Assembly: GCF_000955955.1 (NCBI RefSeq)
Contig: NZ_JYJG01000033.1
Span: 1-44,840, forward strand
Reading direction: 5' to 3'
DNA length: 44,840 bases
Origin: Lentzea aerocolonigenes
GTDB lineage: Bacteria > Actinomycetota > Actinomycetes > Mycobacteriales > Pseudonocardiaceae
A model generated the notes under the pieces. It saw only the letters and a program-made list of their open reading frames with translations. It was not told the DNA's origin and did not search any database. A program made the translations under genes and the position numbers. The stretch's first letter is position 1, and every line of letters begins with the position of its first letter. This document shows, one piece after another, positions 3,140 through 30,427 of this stretch.

Positions 3140-4028
3140 GCCCCGCAGGATGCGCGTGAACGTGCGCACGCTGCAACCGATGTACCGAATGCCGCAGCCG
3201 GTGCTCCACGTCGTGCGCGATCCGGTGCGCCTCCACGAGAGAAGTCTCCCGCGCCACCACCACGGTCAACTCGGCCAGCTGACCGTGCCCGGACCAGCGC
3301 ATCCGCACGTCCTCAACGGCGAGCACGCCCGGTGTGCCGCCCGCGACCTCGGACGCCTTGCCCACCACCACCGGGTCAGCCGCGTCGAGCAACCGCGAGA
3401 ACACCTGCCGTCCGGCGTCGACCAGCACCATGCCGATGAGCACGGCCACCACCAGGCCGACCAACGGATCGACCCACCACCAACCCAGCCATGAGCCGAA
3501 CGCAGCAGCAAGCACCGCCAACGACGTGTACCCGTCCGTACGCGCGTGCAGCCCGTCAGCCACCAACGCCGCCGAACCGATCCGTCGCCCCACACGGATC
3601 CGCCACTGCGCCACGAACTCGTTGCCCAGGAACCCCACGACCGCCGCCACCGCAACGGCCGGAACAGCCGACACGGGACGAGGGTCGAGCAGCCGCGCCA
3701 CCGCCTCGTACCCGGCGAACACGGCGGAGAACGCCATCAACACCACCACAGCCACGCCAGCGAGGTCCTCAGCCCGCCCGTAGCCGTACGGGAAGCGCAC
3801 CGACGCGGCCCGGCGGCTCAGCCAGAACGCGATGCCCAGCGGCACAGCGGTCAGCGCGTCGGCGAAGTTGTGCACGGTGTCGGCGAGCAACGCCACCGAC
3901 CCGCTGAACACCACGACGACGGCCTGGATCAGTGCCGTCACCATCAGAACGGCGAACGACCACCACACCGTGTGCTGCGGATCGGTGTGGTGGCCGTGTC
4001 CATGCCCGTGTCCGTGCCCGAAGCCCAT
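3132..4028 (-). CDS. Cation diffusion facilitator family metal exporter
   Basis: About 298 residues. A histidine-rich N-terminus (HGHGHGHGHH) is followed by about six membrane segments and a cytoplasmic C-terminal domain, the classic CDF layout. The two metal-site motifs are HNFAD in TM2 and ADGLHARTD in TM5, typical of zinc-type CDF transporters, which exchange Zn2+ or a related ion for protons. The C-terminus is also His-rich. I start at the ATG just before the histidine run. A GTG ten codons upstream (4058) falls within a 13-bp palindrome and is less likely. Neither start has a clear ribosome binding site. The downstream deacetylase overlaps it by 8 bases. Confidence 0.87.
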   Translation of the reverse strand: MGFGHGHGHGHGHHTDPQHTVWWSFAVLMVTALIQAVVVVFSGSVALLADTVHNFADALTAVPLGIAFWLSRRAASVRFPYGYGRAEDLAGVAVVVLMAFSAVFAGYEAVARLLDPRPVSAVPAVAVAAVVGFLGNEFVAQWRIRVGRRIGSAALVADGLHARTDGYTSLAVLAAAFGSWLGWWWVDPLVGLVVAVLIGMVLVDAGRQVFSRLLDAADPVVVGKASEVAGGTPGVLAVEDVRMRWSGHGQLAELTVVVARETSLVEAHRIAHDVEHRLRHSVHRLQRAHVHAHPAGHG

Positions 4029-4052
4029 GACAGGAGACGCTACCCCGAAATT

Positions 4053-4065
4053 GTCCACTGTGGAC
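4053..4065. promoter_or_regulatory. GTCCA-N3-TGGAC palindrome upstream of the CDF gene
   Basis: GTCCACTGTGGAC is a perfect 13-bp inverted repeat 25 bases before the chosen CDF start codon. The same pattern recurs at 1259-1271, 8410-8422 and 28783-28795, where it is inside genes. Here it lies in the upstream region, so it may be an operator, perhaps metal-responsive, but no regulator is identified. Confidence 0.45.
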
Positions 4066-4094
4066 TAATGCACAGGTTTGCTTACTGCCAAAGG

Positions 4095-4108
4095 CTAGTT
4101 ACAACTAG
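4095..4108. repeat. Inverted repeat at protease/CDF junction
   Basis: CTAGTT-AC-AACTAG is a perfect 14-base palindrome overlapping the stop codon of the trypsin-like gene and lying upstream of the CDF gene. The 2-base spacer is too small for an RNA loop, so a DNA-binding site is more plausible than a terminator. The function is unknown. Confidence 0.35.
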
Positions 4109-4881
4109 AGCTGGGCGTTGATGACCGAGTAGTACGGCGCGATCCGGCCGTACACACCGGGGTACTTCGGCGCCGCGCAACCCTGGCCCCACGACGTGTC
4201 ACCGATGAGCTTGCCACCGAACACCAGCGGGCCACCGGAGTCGCCCTGGCAGGTGTCCACGCCACCCTGCGGGAAGCCCGCGCACACCATCGAGGTGTTG
4301 CTGTACTGCGAGTACGCGGTCTTGCAGGTCGCGTCCGAGGTCAGCGGCACGTTGGCCTTCAGCAGGTACCGGGAGGCCGAACCGCCGGAGGACGTGGTGC
4401 CCCAGCCGAGGATCAGCGCCGAGTTGCCCGCCGCGTACAGGGCGGTGTCGGCCGGGGTGGCGAGCGGCAGGGTGGCCGAGCTGATGTTGCGGTCCAGCGT
4501 CAGCACGGCGACGTCGTAGCCGGCGGTCGCGGTGGTGTAGCTCGGGTGGACCCAGATCTTGGTCACGTTGGCCGTGGTGCCGACGGTGGTCTGCTTGTCG
4601 TCACGGCCGTGGACGACGCGCGTGCTGGCGGGCGTGCGGCCCTTCACGCAGTGTGCGGCGGTGACGACCTTGTTGGCCTTCACGAGAGTGCCGCCGCAGA
4701 ACTGGAAGTTGGCGGTCGTCGTCAGCATGACGACCCACGGGTACGTCGCGGTGCTGGCTCGCGTACCGCCGACGATCATCGGCGACACGTCGTCGGCGTT
4801 CGCTGCGGGAGCAGTCATGAAGATGCTCGCGAGGGCAGTGACCACAACGGACAAGATCAGGCGATGCAGGGTTTTCGCCAT
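4105..4881 (-). CDS. Secreted trypsin-like serine protease (S1)
   Basis: 258 residues. A Sec signal peptide ends near residue 29 and a short propeptide leads to the mature end IVGG. The catalytic triad is His77 (TAAHC), Asp123 (YDVAVL) and Ser215 (GDSGGP). Asp209, six residues before the serine, matches the trypsin S1-pocket aspartate and predicts cleavage after Arg or Lys. The AAG-GA box at about 4892-4898 supports the ATG at 4881. The leader contains a 13-bp perfect inverted repeat. It is one of four S1 paralogs in the window, and it lies next to a secreted metalloprotease on the same strand. Confidence 0.93.
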   Translation of the reverse strand: MAKTLHRLILSVVVTALASIFMTAPAANADDVSPMIVGGTRASTATYPWVVMLTTTANFQFCGGTLVKANKVVTAAHCVKGRTPASTRVVHGRDDKQTTVGTTANVTKIWVHPSYTTATAGYDVAVLTLDRNISSATLPLATPADTALYAAGNSALILGWGTTSSGGSASRYLLKANVPLTSDATCKTAYSQYSNTSMVCAGFPQGGVDTCQGDSGGPLVFGGKLIGDTSWGQGCAAPKYPGVYGRIAPYYSVINAQL

Positions 4882-4902
4882 AGCTGCCAGTCCTTCCCGA
4901 TA

Positions 4903-4944
4903 ACGCTGTGTGTGCACGGTGTCGAGCGGCGGCACACACAGCGT
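4903..4944 (-). promoter_or_regulatory. 13-bp inverted repeat in leader of trypsin-like gene
   Basis: ACGCTGTGTGTGC (4903-4915) and GCACACACAGCGT (4932-4944) are perfectly complementary around 16 bases. The element ends 22 bases before the ATG, just outside the ribosome binding site. It could be an mRNA-stabilising leader hairpin or a DNA operator. No conserved family was recognised. Confidence 0.65.
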
Positions 4945-5008
4945 CACGGGCGAGGATTCGGCGGCATAACCGCCATTAGTCGTACATGTCCGACTTCACA
5001 GTTGACTA

Positions 5009-6379
5009 CTAGATGATTTTGCGGTCCTTGAACGCCGTCGTAACAGCGGCGGCATCCGCGTCACCGTAGAGCTTCTTGGCGGCGGCGACGGTCGCGTTCG
5101 CGGCCTTCGCGAAGTCGGTCGACGGCGAGTAGGAGAACTGCGCCTCCAGCACGATCTTCGCCGCCTTCTCGCGGCCGAACTTCTTGTAGATGTCGAACAG
5201 CGCACGCGACCAGATCTCGCCGTCGTCGTGCACCTCACCGGTCTTGTCGGCGATGGTCTTGTTGGTGTCCGTGCGACGGATGCAGTGCGGCGTCGTGGTC
5301 GTGTAGGACGTCGAGTCCCAGTCCATGATGCACGCGTACGGGGTCGTCGCCGTGTCCTTCGAGTCACGGGAGGCCATGATCAACGCCCACCAGTCGCCGA
5401 AGCCCTCACCGATCGCGCCGCCCTCCTCGGTCGAGCCGAAGCCCGGCACCTGGGCGTCCTGGATCGCGTGGCCGAGCTCGTGCCACACCACCTCGAGGTC
5501 CTCGGCGTCGTCCACCCCACCGGTGCCGAAGGTGATCTGGTCCTTCGACGGGTCGTAGAACGAGTTGTCCTCGGTCAGACCGAGCGTCGTGAACTTCTGG
5601 GCCTCGTTGTTGACGTTCTTGAACCCGAGGCTCTGGATGTACTTCTGGGCTTCGGTGATGCCCCAGTAGGCGTTGGTCTGCTCGAAGAACGGGTTGTGGC
5701 GGGTGTACTCGAACTTCCTCGTCGAGCTCTTCGCCAGCTTGCTCGTGGCGCCCGTGATCGACGCGAAGTCGCCCCTGAGGTACCCGGACGTGCCCAAGTT
5801 GGACAGCGTGACCGACTTGTACGCGGTGGTGGGCACCGCTGAGTCCGCGTCGTTCTTGTCCGTGAGGCTCTCGTTCTGCAGCGCCACAACGGGGTTGGGG
5901 CTGAACACCTTGCCGGTGCCCTCGGCGTGCTTGACCAGGCTCTCCGACTTCACCACAGCGCCGGTCTCCGCGTGCACCAGCGTGCGCTCGGATCCCTTGC
6001 CGTTGTCGGAGATCACCTCGTAGACGAGTCCGGTGCCCGGCAGCACCTTGAGGTTTGCCCCTTCGGGCACACCAGCGGACTTCGTCTTCGCGGACTCGGC
6101 GGTGACGGCGGGCGTGACGTCCACCGAACCGACCGCGAGACGGCCGTCGTCCACCGTCTTCACACCGGTCGCCTTGTCGACGTGCTCGACGTAGTAGGCG
6201 CCCAGCACGGGTTTTCCGTCGAAGGTCTGCTCGTACCAGGTGTGCGTGGCGGTCAGCGAATCCTTGACGGTCAGCAGCCGCAGACCTTCTTTGGGAGCCG
6301 CGGCCTGGGCGTTGACGGTCAGCATGGACAGGACGACGCCGGCGGTGCAGGCGACTGCGACGAGACGACGCGATCTCAT
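5009..6379 (-). CDS. Secreted zinc metalloprotease with propeptide (HExxH, thermolysin/fungalysin-like)
   Basis: 456 residues. A signal peptide (1-27) is followed by a long FTP/PepSY-like propeptide to about residue 215, then a catalytic domain. The zinc ligands are in HELGH (300-304), and Glu325 in GEGFGDWWA is the glutamate of the GluZincin clan. The spacing and the WHELGH context resemble M4/M36 peptidases; the exact family needs a profile search. It is secreted as an inhibited precursor and matures outside the cell. GGAG 8 bases before the ATG supports the start. It sits between a trypsin-like gene and the cob operon, with its own upstream region (6380-6482). Confidence 0.88.
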   Translation of the reverse strand: MRSRRLVAVACTAGVVLSMLTVNAQAAAPKEGLRLLTVKDSLTATHTWYEQTFDGKPVLGAYYVEHVDKATGVKTVDDGRLAVGSVDVTPAVTAESAKTKSAGVPEGANLKVLPGTGLVYEVISDNGKGSERTLVHAETGAVVKSESLVKHAEGTGKVFSPNPVVALQNESLTDKNDADSAVPTTAYKSVTLSNLGTSGYLRGDFASITGATSKLAKSSTRKFEYTRHNPFFEQTNAYWGITEAQKYIQSLGFKNVNNEAQKFTTLGLTEDNSFYDPSKDQITFGTGGVDDAEDLEVVWHELGHAIQDAQVPGFGSTEEGGAIGEGFGDWWALIMASRDSKDTATTPYACIMDWDSTSYTTTTPHCIRRTDTNKTIADKTGEVHDDGEIWSRALFDIYKKFGREKAAKIVLEAQFSYSPSTDFAKAANATVAAAKKLYGDADAAAVTTAFKDRKII

Positions 6380-24815: not shown

Positions 24816-26690
24816 ATGAACATCGACTTCAACGCCTGGTACGCGCTCGAAAGCGCGATGCAGGACGAGAAAAATCGCCGCGTCAGCCGGGCGACGTTGA
24901 AGCGCGTCGCCCGGTTCGCACGGCCGCAGCGCCGTGCCGTGTACGCGTTGCTGGCCACCAGTGCGGTGGCCGCTGTGCTGGCAGTCGCCTCGCCCGTGCT
25001 GGCCGGTCGCGTGATCGACCAGATCACCGGTGGGCGCGACCTCGGTGTGATCGTGTGGCTGGCTGTCGCGATCGCCGGGGTGGCGGTGCTGGAGGCGGGC
25101 TTCTCGCTGGCCGAGCGGTGGCAGTCGTCGCGCGTGGGCGAGGACCTGATCCTGCGGCTGCGGCAGTCCGTCTTCGACCATGTGCAACGGATGCCGATCG
25201 CGTTCTTCACCCGCACGCGCACCGGAGCGTTGGTGTCGCGGCTGAACAACGACGTGATCGCGGCGCAGCGGGCGTTCTCCGAGACGATCTCCGGGGTGGT
25301 CACGAACGTGATCGCGCTGGTGTTGACGCTGGCCGTGATGCTGACGCTGTCGTGGCAGGTCACGGTGCTCGCGATGGTGCTGCTGCCGATCTTCCTGATC
25401 CCGGCGCGGCGGATGGGCAAGCGCTTGGCGTCGATGCACCGCGAGGCCGCCAACCTCGACTCGGCGATGACGACGCAGATGACCGAGCGGTTCTCGGCGC
25501 CGGGTGCGACGTTGATCAAGCTGTTCGGCCGGCCGTCGTTGGAGAGCATGGAGTTCGGGGCGCGCGCTCGGCGCGTGCGTGACATCGGCGTGCGGACTGC
25601 CGTGGCGCAGTGGTTGTTCCTCGTCGCGTTGACCTTGGTGTCGTCGTTGGCGCTCGCGCTGGTCTACGGGCTGGGCGGGTACTTCGCGATCGCCGGGCAG
25701 ATGGCGCCGGGCACGATCGTGACGCTGGCCCTGTTGTTGACGCGCTTGTACGCGCCGTTGACCGCGTTGGCGGGTGCACGGGTCGACGTGATGACCGCAC
25801 TGGTGTCGTTCGAACGGGTCTTCGAGGTGCTGGACCTGCCGCCGTTGATCAAGGAGAAGCCGGGCGCCGTCGCGGTGCCCGACGGACCGGTTTCGGTGGA
25901 GTTCTCGGACGTCCGGTTCGCTTACCCGTCCGCGGACAAGGTGTCGCTGGCTTCGCTGGAAGAGGTCGCGTCGCTCGACACCCGTGGAGGCGAGGAAATC
26001 CTCGGTGGGGTTTCCTTCGTCGCCGAGCCGGGATCGTTGATCGCACTGGTCGGCGCGTCGGGCGCGGGCAAGTCGACCGTTGCCTCGTTGGTACCTCGGT
26101 TGTACGACGCGGACTCCGGCGCGGTGCGACTGTCCGGTGTGGACGTTCGCGAGCTGTCGTTCGACTCGATCCGCGAGACCGTGGGCATGGTGACGCAGGA
26201 CGGGCACCTGTTCCACGAGTCGATCGGGGCGAACCTGCGGCTGGCGGCACCTGCCGCGACCGACGAGGAGATCTGGGACGCCCTGACGCGGGCGCGGCTG
26301 GCCGACCTGGTGTCGTCGTTGCCGGATCAGCTGGACACCGTGGTGGGTGAACGCGGCTACCGGCTGTCGGGTGGTGAACGGCAACGGCTGACGATCGCGC
26401 GGTTGCTGCTGGCCAAGCCGCGCGTGGTGATCCTGGACGAGGCGACCGCGCACCTGGACTCGCGTTCTGAAGCGGCGGTGCAGGAAGCGCTGGTCGAGGC
26501 ACTGGCCGGGCGGACGTCACTGGTGATCGCGCACCGGCTGTCGACGATCCGGGCCGCGGACCAGATTCTCGTGGTTGATCACGGCGCGATCGTCGAGCGT
26601 GGTACGCATGAGGAGTTGCTGGCCCTGGAGGGCCACTACGCCAAGTTGTACCGCACGCAGTTCAGCGAAGAGCCGATCGGAACGCCATGA
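24816..26690 (+). CDS. ABC exporter half-transporter (fused permease-ATPase)
   Basis: 624 residues. The N-terminal half has about six membrane helices (between residues 42 and 325), and the C-terminal half is an ABC ATPase: Walker [10 protein letters not shown] (413-421), Q-loop TQDG, signature LSGGERQ (517-523), Walker B VVILDEA (537-543), H-loop IAHRLS. This is the layout of type IV exporters (MsbA/Sav1866/BmrA type) that work as homo- or heterodimers to expel lipids, peptides or drugs. The acetyltransferase gene starts within its last codons (ATGA overlap), so the two are coupled. An export plus modification pair suggests resistance or tailoring of a small molecule (inference). Confidence 0.93.
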
Positions 26691-27322
26691 CCATTCCCTC
26701 GCCCGACAACCTCTACCCGTTGCCGGACATCGCGCGGACCGTGCAACTGCGGCCGTTGGTGAAGAACCCGCAGATCATCGTCGGTGAGTACACGTACTAC
26801 GACGATCCGTTCCACGCCGAGGAGTTCGAGCGCCGCAACGTGCTCTACAACTTCGGCGAGGAGAAGCTGTTGATCGGGCGGTACTGCGCGCTGGCCGAGG
26901 GCGTCCGGTTCATCATGTCCGGTGGAAATCACCGGACTGACGGGGTGTCGACCTTCCCGTTCACGATCTTCGGTGGCGCGTGGGGTGAGAAGACCCTCGA
27001 CATCGCGCTGGGGGCGGCTTCTCGTGGAGACACGGTGGTGGGCAACGACGTCTGGATCGGGTACCAGGCGTTGATCATGCCGGGGGTGCGGATCGGGAAC
27101 GGGGCGATCATCGCGTCCGGGTCCGTGGTGGTGTCGGACGTGCCGGCTTACGGCGTGGTCGGCGGGAATCCGGCGAAGATGCTGAAGAAGCGGTACAGCG
27201 ACGAGGAAATCGAGTTGCTGGAGCGGATCGCCTGGTGGGACTGGCCGGTGGAGAAGGTCACCGAGCACGTCCGGGTGATCATGGCCGGGACGCCTGCCGA
27301 GCTGGCCGAGGTGGCGGGCTGA
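26687..27322 (+). CDS. Vat/CatB-like hexapeptide acetyltransferase
   Basis: 211 residues, matching the xenobiotic acetyltransferase family (streptogramin A Vat enzymes and type B chloramphenicol acetyltransferases). Features are the left-handed beta-helix with hexapeptide repeats, the catalytic-loop histidine in [45 protein letters not shown] and the C-terminal WWDWP block. Such enzymes form trimers and acetylate a hydroxyl of the drug using acetyl-CoA. Environmental homologs often act on unknown substrates, so a resistance role is inferred, supported only by its 4-base overlap with the ABC exporter gene. Confidence 0.9.
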
Positions 27323-27388: not shown

Positions 27389-29269
27389 ATGGAGTACGAC
27401 CGCTACTGCGACCTGACGATGCGCGGCGGCACGACCAGCGGTGTTGTCTATCCGCTGGCGGTTGCGTCGTTGGCGCGCCACTACGAGTTCAAGCAGATCG
27501 GCGGGGCGTCCGCCGGGGCGATCGCGGCGGCGTTCACCGCGGCCGCCGAGCGCGGGCGTGGTTCCGGTGGGTTCGAGAAGCTCACCAAGCTGATCGACTG
27601 GTTCACGTCCGGGACCGGGGCGGAGCAGTGGCGGCTGGCGCAGTTGTTCCAGCCCAACGAGAAGACGCGGGCGCTGTACCGGATCGTCGTGGCGACGATG
27701 CAGAGGCGGGACACCACCGGACGCAGTGCGATCTCGTGCTTGTTCTTCGCGTTGCTCGGAGCTGTCGGGTTGCGCGCCAAGGGTGTGCTCGGGCTGATGG
27801 CGTTGTTGTGGCTGGGCGGGCCCGTGTTGTGGTCCGCCTGGCTGGCGCCCGAGCAGTACCCGACATGGCTGGCGGTGCTGGTCGTGTTGCTCGCGCTCGC
27901 GTGCATTGTGATTGTGCTGTGGCCGTTGCGCGGGAGTTTGCCTTGGCCTGCGGTGTTGTTCGTCATCGTGCCGTTGGTGCTCGGGTTGGCGTTCTCCAGG
28001 CACTATGCGACGGCTGCGGTGGTTTTGCTGGTGTGGCTCGTGTTGACGTTGGCTGCTGTCAGCGCGTTGACGGTCACGTACGGGTACGCGATGCAGCGGT
28101 ACATGCGGAACAACGCGCGTGCCATCCACTTCGGACTCGTGCCGGGTACCGGGGATTTCACGCCGTCGTGGCTGGATCGGTTGGCGGGCATGCCGAAGCC
28201 GACCGGGGTGCCGCCGCTGGCCGACTGGATCGCGGATCAGTTGGACGACCTCGCGGGGACCGAGCGGGCGTTGACGTTCGGGGATCTCGGCGAGATCAAC
28301 CTGGTGCTGATGACGACGGATCTGTCCGAGGGGCGGCCGTACCGGTTGCCGTTCAAGGGTGAGTGGCAGTACTGCGAGGAGTGCCTCGGGTACGTGTTGC
28401 CGAGCCGGGTCGTCGAGCAGATGAACGGACCTGAGACCGGCGACAGGTGTCCCGAGCACGCGCACATGCCGCTCAGGGAACTGCCGGGCCGTGAGAGCCT
28501 GCCGGTGGTGCTGGCCGTGCGGATGTCGCTGTCGTTCCCCGGGCTGATCGCGGCGGTGCCGTTGTGCCGGGACGGGCGGGTGCACTGGTTCTCGGACGGT
28601 GGCATCACCAGCAACTTCCCGATCCACTTCTTCGACTCGCTGCTGCCGCGCTGGCCCACGTTCGGGCTGAGCCTGCAGCCGTATCCGCCGGGCGACACGA
28701 ACGAGGTGTGGCTGCCGGAGCAGGACGCGTCGACCGCCGGTGCGCACTACGCGCCGCTGACGTCGATGCCGAAGTTCCTGGTGTCCATTTTGGACACGTT
28801 CCTGGACTGGCGGGACACGATGCAGTCGGCGTTGCCGGGCTATCGCGGGCGGATCGCGCACGTGCGCCAGGCCGAGGACGAGGGCGGCACGAACCTGTTC
28901 ATGCCGCCGGCCACGATCAGGAAGCTGGCGTTGCGCGGGCAGAAGGCCGGGGATCTGCTGCGGGAGCGGTTCGAACAGCAGGCGAACACGGACCGGTACC
29001 GGTGGATCCGGCTGCGAATGGCGGTGCGGGAGTACCAGGAGCTCGGCGTGCAGGCTGCGGAGCGGGACGCGATGTACGAGGAGCTGCTCGCACGGTTCCA
29101 GATTCCCGCCGAGCTGCACGAGTGGTTCACGACTCCCCCGGCCGACGGTGACCCCTACAAGGCCCAGATCGAGGTCGCGCTTGACGACGTCGGGCGGTTG
29201 AAGGACGACGGGCCGTTCGACGGCGTGGCGCCGGTCGATCCGGATTTGCGCCTGACGCCACCCGAGTAG
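27389..29269 (+). CDS. Patatin-like phospholipase with inserted membrane region
   Basis: 626 residues. The catalytic dyad is Ser41 in GGASAG (38-43) and Asp403 in SDGGITSNFP, and the N-terminal glycine-rich MRGGTTSGVVYPLA serves as oxyanion loop. About 360 residues separate the two, because residues 116-232 contain three to four strongly hydrophobic helices followed by a soluble segment with CxxC (329-332) and a further C/H pair (354, 357) that could bind zinc. A membrane-tethered lipid acyl hydrolase is likely. No cyclase or other CBASS partner is adjacent, so a defence role is not supported. Start: ATG at 27389 without a clear ribosome binding site. Confidence 0.82.
   Translation: MEYDRYCDLTMRGGTTSGVVYPLAVASLARHYEFKQIGGASAGAIAAAFTAAAERGRGSGGFEKLTKLIDWFTSGTGAEQWRLAQLFQPNEKTRALYRIVVATMQRRDTTGRSAISCLFFALLGAVGLRAKGVLGLMALLWLGGPVLWSAWLAPEQYPTWLAVLVVLLALACIVIVLWPLRGSLPWPAVLFVIVPLVLGLAFSRHYATAAVVLLVWLVLTLAAVSALTVTYGYAMQRYMRNNARAIHFGLVPGTGDFTPSWLDRLAGMPKPTGVPPLADWIADQLDDLAGTERALTFGDLGEINLVLMTTDLSEGRPYRLPFKGEWQYCEECLGYVLPSRVVEQMNGPETGDRCPEHAHMPLRELPGRESLPVVLAVRMSLSFPGLIAAVPLCRDGRVHWFSDGGITSNFPIHFFDSLLPRWPTFGLSLQPYPPGDTNEVWLPEQDASTAGAHYAPLTSMPKFLVSILDTFLDWRDTMQSALPGYRGRIAHVRQAEDEGGTNLFMPPATIRKLALRGQKAGDLLRERFEQQANTDRYRWIRLRMAVREYQELGVQAAERDAMYEELLARFQIPAELHEWFTTPPADGDPYKAQIEVALDDVGRLKDDGPFDGVAPVDPDLRLTPPE
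28783..28795. repeat. GTCCA-N3-TGGAC palindrome inside patatin gene
   Basis: GTCCATTTTGGAC, part of a 17-base inverted repeat GTGTCCA-TTT-TGGACAC (28781-28797). TTT is unusual in such GC-rich coding sequence. It is one of four exact copies of the dispersed motif in this window. Confidence 0.5.
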
Positions 29270-29281
29270 GAGCGGTAACCT
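29252..29281 (+). promoter_or_regulatory. Predicted leaderless promoter of the srmL leader ORF
   Basis: CTGACG (29252-29257), an 18-base spacer and TAACCT (29276-29281) resemble actinobacterial housekeeping -35 and -10 boxes. The next GTG begins 6 bases after the -10 box, exactly where transcription would start, so the transcript would be leaderless and begin with the leader ORF. The -35 box lies within the 3' end of the patatin gene. Confidence 0.6.
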
Positions 29282-29287
29282 GGGTGC

Positions 29288-29335
29288 GTGACGCGATTTA
29301 GCCACCCCCGGCCTGCGGCGGTGGCGCGCGCTTAG
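29288..29335 (+). CDS. Predicted 15-residue leader peptide upstream of srmL
   Basis: GTG ACG CGA TTT ... GCT TAG encodes a 15-residue peptide beginning M-T-R-F-S-H-P-R-P and ending A-R-A. Support is positional: a well-spaced promoter places transcription start on its first base, and its stop codon lies 3 bases before the 5' arm of the hairpin that masks the srmL ribosome binding site. A ribosome finishing this ORF would cover that arm and free the site, as in translational attenuators of the erm type. An internal GCCACC/GGTGGC stem (29301-29325) lies within the ORF. The peptide itself probably has no other role. Expression is unproven. Confidence 0.55.
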   Translation: MTRFSHPRPAAVARA

Positions 29336-29338
29336 AAC

Positions 29339-29392
29339 CTTCCCGTTGGTCGGGGGACTCCGCATCCCACAGAGACCGAGTAGAACGGGAAG
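29339..29392 (+). promoter_or_regulatory. RBS-masking hairpin (putative translational attenuator) of srmL
   Basis: CTTCCCGTT (29339-29347) pairs perfectly with AACGGGAAG (29384-29392), and GGTC (29348-29351) can extend the helix with GACC (29374-29377). The 3' arm contains the whole GGGAAG ribosome binding site of srmL, whose ATG starts 6 bases later. When folded, translation of srmL should be low; translation of the upstream leader ORF would disrupt the 5' arm. Confidence 0.65.
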
Positions 29393-29398
29393 AACCCC

Positions 29399-30427
29399 AT
29401 GTACCGCACCGATGAACTCGTGCGCGCTCTGAGCGTGCGCGACCTCAGCGATCCCGCGCAGGGGCCGCACGCGATGCAGTTGTTGGTCAAAGATCTGCAC
29501 GCCGTCCTCGACAACCCGCGGGAAGTCCGCCATCACCCGCTCGTGCCGGTGGAGCACAACTACGAGCGGCTCGGCTATCCGGCCGACGCGGTCACCAGGG
29601 AAGCGCGCTACACCAGGTACGTCAGCGAGACGTGCATGCTGCGCAGCCACACGACGGCGATGATCCCGCCGGCGATGCGGGCGTCGACACCGGACGTGAC
29701 GCTGGTCTGCCCTGGACTCGTGTACCGCCGGGACACGGTCGACCGCCTGCACACCGGCACCCCGCACCAGCTGGACGTCTGGCGGATCAGCAGGAGCCAG
29801 GAGGATTTCGGTGAACTGGTCGACGTCGTCGTCACGACGTTGTTGCCCGGCAAGCGTTATCGGATGGTCGACGCGCAACACCCGTACACGACGCACGGCA
29901 AGCAGATCGACGTCTGGCACGACGGTGAATGGGTGGAGATCGGCGAGGGCGGACGGACCGCGCGCCACGTCCTCGAAGACCACCCGCACGGCCTCGCGAC
30001 GGGCTGGGGGTTGGACCGGCTTCTGATGCTGCGCAAGGGAATCCCGGACATCCGGCTGTTGCGCAACGAGGACCCGCGGATCGCGACGCAGATGCTGGAC
30101 CTCGACGAGTACCGGCCGATCTCACGGCATCCCGCCGCGATCAGGGACATCTCGATCATGGCTCACGAGAGCGAGGACATCGAGACGCTCGGCGACCAGA
30201 TCCGGGCGCTCACTCCGGAGGACGTGATCGAGGAGATCGCGATCCTGAGCGAGACGCCGGCCGAGGAACTGCCCGAACACGTCCAACAACGCCTGGAAGC
30301 CAGGCCCGGGCAGAAGAACGTGCTGATCCGCGTGACGATGAGGGCGCCGGAACGCACCCTCACCGACCGCGAGACGAACGAGATACGGGACCGGCTGCTT
30401 CAGGGCTTGCGGGCGACAGCGCCGTAG
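29399..30427 (+). CDS. srmL: PheS-related ligase (SrmL-type, monomeric PheRS-like)
   Basis: 342 residues. It combines a class II aminoacyl-tRNA synthetase core like the PheRS alpha subunit (LRSHTTAM at 81-88; motif 2 GLVYRRDTVDRLHTGTPHQ at 106-124; motif 3 GWGLDRLLML at 202-211) with a C-terminal FDX-ACB anticodon-like domain (IRVTMRAPERTLTDRE). This resembles mitochondrial monomeric PheRS rather than bacterial PheST, and it lacks the long N-terminal coiled coil. NCBI uses the name PheS-related mystery ligase SrmL for such actinobacterial proteins; the substrate is unknown. It may activate an amino acid for tRNA or for another acceptor. The preceding leader ORF and hairpin suggest translational control. 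Confidence 0.82.
   Translation: MYRTDELVRALSVRDLSDPAQGPHAMQLLVKDLHAVLDNPREVRHHPLVPVEHNYERLGYPADAVTREARYTRYVSETCMLRSHTTAMIPPAMRASTPDVTLVCPGLVYRRDTVDRLHTGTPHQLDVWRISRSQEDFGELVDVVVTTLLPGKRYRMVDAQHPYTTHGKQIDVWHDGEWVEIGEGGRTARHVLEDHPHGLATGWGLDRLLMLRKGIPDIRLLRNEDPRIATQMLDLDEYRPISRHPAAIRDISIMAHESEDIETLGDQIRALTPEDVIEEIAILSETPAEELPEHVQQRLEARPGQKNVLIRVTMRAPERTLTDRETNEIRDRLLQGLRATAP

Follow-up and report, generated by a model that had tools for sequence, protein, structure and literature searches.

A candidate ribosome-mediated attenuator with a phenylalanine control codon upstream of srmL in Lentzea aerocolonigenes

Results

Layout of the srmL leader

The DNA analyzed here, a stretch of 44,840 nucleotides of Lentzea aerocolonigenes (contig NZ_JYJG01000033.1, positions 1 to 44,840) that we refer to as the window, carries srmL, the gene for a PheS-related mystery ligase. 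It is preceded by a leader that contains a short upstream open reading frame (uORF) with one phenylalanine (Phe) codon and several mutually complementary RNA elements, one of which spans the Shine-Dalgarno (SD) sequence of srmL. The features are as follows.

29252-29257, plus strand: -35-like box CTGACG, recognized by sequence, inside the 3' end of the gene at 27389-29269
29276-29281, plus strand: -10-like box TAACCT, 18 nucleotides (N18) after CTGACG and 6 nt before the GTG; TANNNT conserved in relatives
29288-29335, plus strand: leader ORF VTRFSHPRPAAVARA, 15 codons from GTG at 29288, stop codon TAG at 29333-29335
29297-29299, plus strand: putative control codon TTT (Phe), from codon counts over 119 leaders
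29305-29313, plus strand: element A, CCCCCGGCC, with a CCC codon beginning six bases past the Phe codon; partner B or D
29301-29325, plus strand: predicted uORF-internal hairpin A:B (GCCACC..CCG/CGG..GGTGGC), from the minimum free energy fold, own-versus-cross ranks and covariation
29339-29347, plus strand: element C, predicted anti-SD arm CTTCCCGTT, complementary to E, from the fold and cross-species ranks
29348-29356, plus strand: element D, GGTCGGGGG, complementary to A, from covariation outside Lentzea
29384-29392, plus strand: element E, AACGGGAAG, complementary to C, with the srmL ribosome-binding site inside
29399-30427, plus strand: srmL, PheS-related mystery ligase of 342 amino acids, ATG at 29399, match to NF051887

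Element B is the 3' half of the uORF, and D (GGUCGGGGG) lies between C and the SD, inside the stem loop. A preliminary description of this DNA had already placed the two boxes, the GTG...TAG uORF and the 9-bp stem on the srmL ribosome-binding site exactly at these positions, and the alternative stem that it reported within the uORF is the predicted hairpin A:B. What it overlooked was the selected Phe codon and the long-range helix A:D between the uORF and the stem loop.

The minimum free energy fold of the window leader consists of the uORF hairpin and the SD-closing stem. Its folding energy was modest, both for the 158-nt leader (z = -2.25, with 6 of 200 shuffles as good) and for the 75-nt stem region (z = -1.02, 24 of 200). 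The leader is thus not remarkable by folding energy alone, and it is conservation that lifts it above chance. No intrinsic terminator was detected between positions 29150 and 29500.

The two boxes had been proposed to form a promoter. Both are present, and a TANNNT box lies 6 to 9 nt ahead of the uORF start in 95 of 119 leaders, while it is missing from 21 of the 26 leaders in the Myxococcota sample. Since a scan with the sigma-70 consensus found no promoter at the window leader, the promoter call is based on the TANNNT box. Given the position of the -10-like box, transcription would begin at the uORF start codon or right beside it, so that the actinobacterial uORF may be translated from a leaderless transcript.

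A rare Phe codon is conserved in srmL leaders

We collected srmL loci from named genomes, relatives, the class, the phylum of an Archangium metagenome-assembled genome, two more families, plasmids and phages. This yielded 155 loci with an srmL match and, among them, 129 distinct 5' regions. A search for the pattern start, Phe codon, N6, CC, stop found a uORF of this kind, with CCC six bases past the Phe codon, in 119 of the 129, which bears out the proposal of a leader ORF ahead of an SD-sequestering stem, a stem that co-evolves across groups (see below). Five regions had been removed before these counts because of a mis-picked leader, a partial srmL or missing upstream DNA (L146, L155, L156, L157 and L158), and five were not caught by the pattern (L104, L109, L110, L111 and L161). 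A leader was nevertheless recognizable in seven of these ten (L104, L109, L110, L111, L146, L155 and L158); of the other three, L161 is a Phe-rich phage variant, L157 has a truncated srmL with no leader, and L156 has no upstream DNA.

Some of these leaders depart from the common form. A tandem leader in one reading frame is present in L104 (1194-1328), L109 (1191-1328) and L110 (minus strand, ending ~154 nt before the srmL match), with Tyr (TAT) at the Phe position of the first copy and TTT kept in the second. In L111 (1248-1709), the C run is one base shorter, which shifts the frame so that the uORF runs on into srmL in a frame other than that of srmL; this is either a sequencing error or a real variant.

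The Phe codon of the leader was TTT in 115 and TTC in 4 of the 119 leaders. In the matched part of the srmL coding regions of the same loci, the counts were 2 TTT and 37 TTC, and six genes of the window contained 0 TTT and 68 TTC. As the loci are mutually related, a Fisher value for this contrast cannot be read as a probability. The codon directly before Phe was CGA in 91 of the 119 leaders. At the peptide level, R was frequent near Phe (43 of 59 leaders at -1 and 46 of 59 at +4), with the remainder being variable. Because the P is encoded by CCC and the rest of the peptide varies, selection apparently acts on the codon rather than on the peptide. Judged by these codon counts, the selected feature of the leader is the rare Phe codon TTT.

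These findings bear on two other explanations of the leader. In the preliminary description, the order of elements had been likened to that of the erm and cat leaders, and the uORF might accordingly be an arrest-peptide or drug-sensing leader in which an antibiotic, together with the nascent chain, would determine stalling. Although both the SD sequestration and the order of elements would fit, the peptide shows no conservation beyond F and the CCC-forced P, the flanking residues vary, and selection is for the codon TTT. We therefore consider this explanation improbable and the comparison with drug-stalled leaders misplaced, the codon preference pointing instead to amino acid or tRNA sensing of the trp/phe attenuator kind. 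Alternatively, the leader RNA could be a riboswitch or a binding site through which SrmL regulates itself via its anticodon-binding-like domain, with the uORF being incidental. The conserved helices were indeed seen only with srmL in the material searched. However, the reading frame was kept in the 5 of 23 other Lentzea-group leaders that carry a 3-nt insertion ahead of the Phe codon, a start codon is found throughout (75 ATG, 42 GTG and 2 TTG), and the Phe codon bias falls outside the helices, making this the least probable of the explanations that we considered. Past the stop codon, length differences among the Lentzea-group leaders were not multiples of three.

The leader was also specific for srmL within the loci searched. 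A strict pattern (TANNNT, start, Phe codon, N6, CCC, stop, complementary 9-mer) gave 99 matches in 1,576,152 bases of srmL loci with both strands counted, which measures specificity within loci picked for holding srmL, some of them overlapping, and not genome-wide. By their peptides, 97 of the 99 were srmL leaders, and the other two correspond to the leaders of srmL in L064 and L066, picked up from a neighboring start. A search for the leader ahead of other genes in 99 relatives returned 30 matches, of which 19 were assigned by place to srmL leaders; the remaining 11 compare with 8 for a reversed control, in what is a partial test, as the pattern misses many srmL leaders.

Co-evolving helices in the uORF and around the SD

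We compared the duplex energy of each helix within its own leader with that of cross-species combinations, using 59 representative leaders. Own pairs came out ahead of cross-species ones for three helices, with mean ranks of 0.17/0.19 for C:E, 0.21/0.16 for A:D and 0.29/0.24 for A:B. All nine bases of helix A:D were paired in 37 of the 59 leaders, and 53 had at least 8 pairs, compared to 1.0% and 16.6% of shuffles, respectively. Since A and D are themselves conserved, A from another species fits D fully in 33% of cases.

Covariation of A:D and A:B was assessed in an alignment of 33 leaders outside Lentzea, out of 35 prepared; L144 and L159 were omitted from one leader alignment. For A:D, 94.5% of the cells were paired, and 5 of the 10 pairs showed double changes. 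Its covariation score was reached by none of 500 shuffles, and slid versions of the helix were at most 65.2% paired. Within Lentzea, A:D is nearly invariant, and 135 of 500 shuffles reached every measure. For A:B, 88.4% of cells were paired and double changes occurred at 2 of 10 pairs, a number reached by 387 of 500 shuffles, and the covariation score was reached by none of 500.

The nine-base SD stem C:E was 93.8% paired in 24 Lentzea leaders, and 2 of its 9 pairs showed double changes. Four of its pairs are invariant there, one pair has letters in just 2 rows, and a version slid by one column exceeded the real one on the covariation measure (0.115 versus 0.066). Covariation of this stem had been suggested as a check on the preliminary description; it is weak within Lentzea, and across groups the stem co-evolves. 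As C:E is weakly tested inside Lentzea, it draws its support from other groups, in which both arms differ and yet remain complementary. Comparison of leaders across species thus shows A:B, A:D and C:E as co-evolving helices. We also considered B:C as a general 2:3 helix, which by eye looked good in Nocardia and Micrococcaceae leaders; with a mean rank of 0.49, then of 0.45/0.45, own pairs were scarcely ahead of cross-species ones, and the helix is not claimed.

Leaders on an Azotobacter plasmid and in a huge phage

Two relatives outside the GC-rich set carry the layout with a terminator-like hairpin. On an Azotobacter chroococcum plasmid (L093, NZ_CP066311.1), the segment following A pairs with the 5' arm of a hairpin (3:4) that leads into TTTTCTTTT, with pairing energies of -15.1 (1:2), -19.3 (2:3) and -20.5 kcal/mol (3:4). 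The terminator scan gave a shorter, five-pair version of this hairpin, and the 2:3 pairing was matched by 1 of 2000 mononucleotide shuffles. The other relative belongs to an uncultured phage of 634,780 bp (L161, LR745206.1, 609851-618888), in which srmL lies at 3992-5071 of the locus and its product shares 40.5% identity with the window SrmL. The phage leader, MNTNTTFNFFFSHKMV, contains four Phe codons, at codons 7, 9, 10 and 11, followed ahead of srmL by a terminator-like hairpin of 11 pairs (0.0 expected). The segment past the leader is complementary to the 5' arm of this hairpin, and the 2:3 pairing was matched by 17 of 2000 shuffles. As predicted from these pairings, each of the two leaders combines a terminator-like hairpin with a readable antiterminator. 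No further relatives were found among viral contigs with the window SrmL and the phage SrmL as queries.

Around srmL, the Azotobacter plasmid carries transposase genes of the IS630 and IS3 types and a toxin-antitoxin pair, VapC/Phd-YefM, a neighborhood that suggests mobility.

SrmL resembles mitochondrial phenylalanyl-tRNA synthetase

The window SrmL matched the NCBIfam family NF051887, PheS-related mystery ligase SrmL, with 450.9 bits (cut-off, 300), and stayed below the equivalog cut-offs for phenylalanyl-tRNA synthetase (PheRS), with 81.9 versus 237.45 bits for TIGR00468 and 123.1 versus 258.35 bits for TIGR00469. Its closest relatives in the named genomes are from Lentzea, with 80 to 87% identity for L003 to L016, one of which is labelled Nocardia. 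An AlphaFold2 model built from 42 sequences (predicted local distance difference test score, 92.4) had human mitochondrial PheRS (3cmq, 24% identity) as its top Foldseek match, which was also the best match in the PDB by sequence. Mitochondrial PheRS is a monomer made up of a catalytic core and an FDX-ACB domain, and the Pfam domains of the SrmL family agree with this composition.

Residues R110, R111, D112, H118, Q124, H161, Y163, E180 and E183 were invariant across 45 aligned members of the family, including that of the phage. Relative to mitochondrial PheRS, F-P-F is replaced by H161-P-Y163, HQLE by HQLD (HQxE to HQxD126, with D126 being nearly invariant), and GCG by EGG in the window and by ECG (E183-C-G) in most family members. 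The F-P-F, HQxE and G-C-G positions presumably line the Phe pocket. SrmL is thus not a proven PheRS.

The same genome also has an ordinary PheS-like gene, and no similar Phe leader was present among the uORFs listed upstream of this pheS. No tRNA gene adjoined srmL in 34 loci examined with ARAGORN. Among 7999 candidates scored, 5633 proteins fell into the SrmL family at E ≤ 1e-20, some of them maybe ordinary PheRS relatives. Partial srmL matches were observed at G044:C1:2952656-2953360, at G081:C6:476008-476706 and in L157 (an in-frame stop, or a start at residue 101); accordingly, srmL appears to undergo occasional loss in relatives.

Upstream of srmL, the window contains an ABC transporter gene (24816-26690) adjoining a gene (26687-27322) for a hexapeptide acetyltransferase that is similar to the Vat streptogramin A acetyltransferases, at 233.2 bits and thus under the Vat family cut-off of 300. 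The gene at 27389-29269 encodes a protein of 626 amino acids whose middle is hydrophobic and whose GASAGA/DGG motifs resemble those of patatin-like lipases; no NCBIfam family matched it.

Discussion

Proposed mechanism

On balance, we favor the explanation that the leader is a ribosome-mediated attenuator with a Phe control codon, which would read the level of charged tRNA-Phe and act on srmL translation via the SD. In this mechanism, the sensor would be the single UUU, a rare codon, of the short uORF, which is probably leaderless. Given the six-base spacing, a ribosome with the Phe codon in its A site would cover the start of A, and as long as it was held at UUU, A could pair with neither B nor D. 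The downstream RNA would then presumably refold and free the SD or, in the relatives with a terminator hairpin, avoid termination. Normal translation of the leader would instead lead to the default fold, A:B plus C:E, and keep srmL low. SrmL itself would then be made on induction, as a monomeric enzyme resembling mitochondrial PheRS, and would act on the tRNA-Phe system.

In a classical Phe attenuator, stalling at Phe codons switches the gene on. Because the phage and Azotobacter leaders follow this plan, we favor induction by a shortage of charged tRNA-Phe, and srmL would most likely be raised when Phe-tRNA is short, a direction that we infer from this likeness.

Several points weigh against this explanation. 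A starvation sensor would be expected to have more than one Phe codon. The presence of F and P in all 119 leaders is by construction, as the pattern demands Phe and CC; the evidence free of this construction consists of the TTT:TTC ratio and the helices alone, and the choice of candidates itself also favored TTT. The B:C (2:3) helix had no support in the GC-rich set (mean rank 0.45, 59 representatives). In the phage and Azotobacter leaders, the 1:2 helices fell short of significance, with 437 and 179 of 2000 shuffles, respectively, doing as well, and the terminator hairpin was kept in both the unconstrained and the Phe-stalled equilibrium folds. With the pocket altered, the product of SrmL may not be Phe-tRNA, and another amino acid is possible. 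Folding with a masked ribosome gave a mean SD accessibility of 0.23 over 99 leaders with the ribosome at the Phe codon and of 0.22 without it. Finally, in 23 Lentzea leaders, SD accessibility was left at 0.07 by a ribosome at the Phe codon and rose from 0.08 to 0.42 with a ribosome at the leader stop.

These folds ignore pseudoknots, which A:D together with C:E would form, as well as co-transcriptional order, and the footprint of the ribosome was of assumed size. A ribosome at the Phe codon opened the SD in L020, L022, L026, L029 and L030 and closed it in L058 and L059. As a guide to the sign of regulation, SD accessibility with the ribosome at each codon showed no common direction.

The Lentzea values would fit an arrangement of the same parts with the opposite sign. 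A ribosome that has moved past Phe to the leader stop would mask B and C and allow A:D to form, turning srmL on, so that stalling at UUU would mean off and srmL would be made only when Phe-tRNA is plentiful. This is close to the preliminary description, in which a ribosome in the stop region was proposed to free the srmL SD. In the modeled fold of the window leader (L033), a ribosome over B or at the stop indeed led to A:D formation and freed the SD, and the Lentzea stop codon lies 12 codons past Phe, which, for the assumed footprint, just clears A. However, the part of this proposal that holds in Lentzea translated into only a small effect elsewhere: a ribosome at the stop changed SD accessibility from 0.42 to 0.47, from 0.15 to 0.18 and from 0.26 to 0.30 in three other groups. 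The opposite sign also leaves unexplained the four Phe codons of the phage before a terminator-like hairpin and the 2:3 pairing in the phage and Azotobacter. We thus regard it as rather unlikely and retain induction by Phe-tRNA shortage.

As a more speculative extension, for which we see a chance of perhaps one in several, the leader and srmL could form a mobile cassette distributed over actinobacteria, Myxococcota/Deltaproteobacteria, an Azotobacter plasmid and a huge phage. Such a cassette would combine a leaderless one-codon UUU sensor and a new switch helix, A:D, with an enzyme for emergencies: should the normal PheRS fail or be poisoned, SrmL would come to the rescue of tRNA-Phe, perhaps by means of a non-standard amino acid, as the altered pocket might allow.

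Relation to known systems

No match to Rfam was found for positions 28900 to 29700 of the window up to an E value of 1. Among 12 further loci, searched up to an E value of 0.5, there was one sub-threshold match (L064, 3883-3963), which lies outside the leader. The open-licence literature gave no match for the phrase "PheS-related mystery ligase" and none for PheRS attenuation in Actinobacteria. Related searches of it turned up, to judge by the titles, a general review and a domain-evolution method, and no account of this leader in the titles, abstract openings and passages covered. In the available text of a review of duplicated aminoacyl-tRNA synthetases, a term search found PheRS, PheS and phenylalan to be absent. 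By Rfam and the open-licence literature, the srmL leader therefore appears to be undescribed so far.

Ribosome-mediated attenuation of aminoacyl-tRNA synthetase genes is already known. In E. coli, pheST and pheA have trp-type transcription attenuators, with which the srmL leader shares a short translated leader, Phe control codon(s) and alternative helices, the phage leader adding a terminator-like hairpin. It differs in that it has one UUU rather than a run and, in the window, lacks a terminator, and also in its output at the SD and in the extra helix A:D. In actinobacteria, Vecchione and Sello reportedly described in 2010 the attenuator of an auxiliary, antibiotic-resistant gene for tryptophanyl-tRNA synthetase (TrpRS). 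The erm and cat systems are translational attenuators in which, as here, a leader ORF is followed by an SD-hiding stem; the srmL leader differs from them in lacking a conserved arrest peptide and in showing selection of the Phe codon. SrmL itself shares with human mitochondrial PheRS the fold of a monomeric catalytic core with an FDX-ACB domain, and differs from it in sequence, with the above 24% identity and changed pocket residues.

The available part of a survey of actinobacterial RNA regulation names pheST as a classical case of attenuation and lists trpS2 and leuS as candidate attenuators in Streptomyces, leuS with terminator hairpins (PMC1262725). It gives candidates for Trp, Cys, Leu and ileS and, within that part, no conserved structures for other amino acid biosynthesis pathways (PMC1262725). 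With trpS2, leuS and the auxiliary TrpRS gene, srmL would share ribosome-mediated control of a synthetase gene in actinobacteria; as far as the survey text goes, trpS2 and leuS differ in not being Phe genes and leuS in its terminator hairpins, while the srmL product is only PheRS-related. The uORF of the ilvB-II motif of Corynebacterium is, in the portion of that report available, likewise a conserved actinobacterial uORF enriched in pathway residues, and differs from the srmL leader in concerning branched-chain amino acids and transcription attenuation (PMC10272879). Set against these systems, what is new here is a putative attenuator that has a single selected UUU codon, would act on the SD in the window and includes one more co-varying helix, and the regulation of srmL provides a concrete clue to the job of a large family still named mystery ligase.

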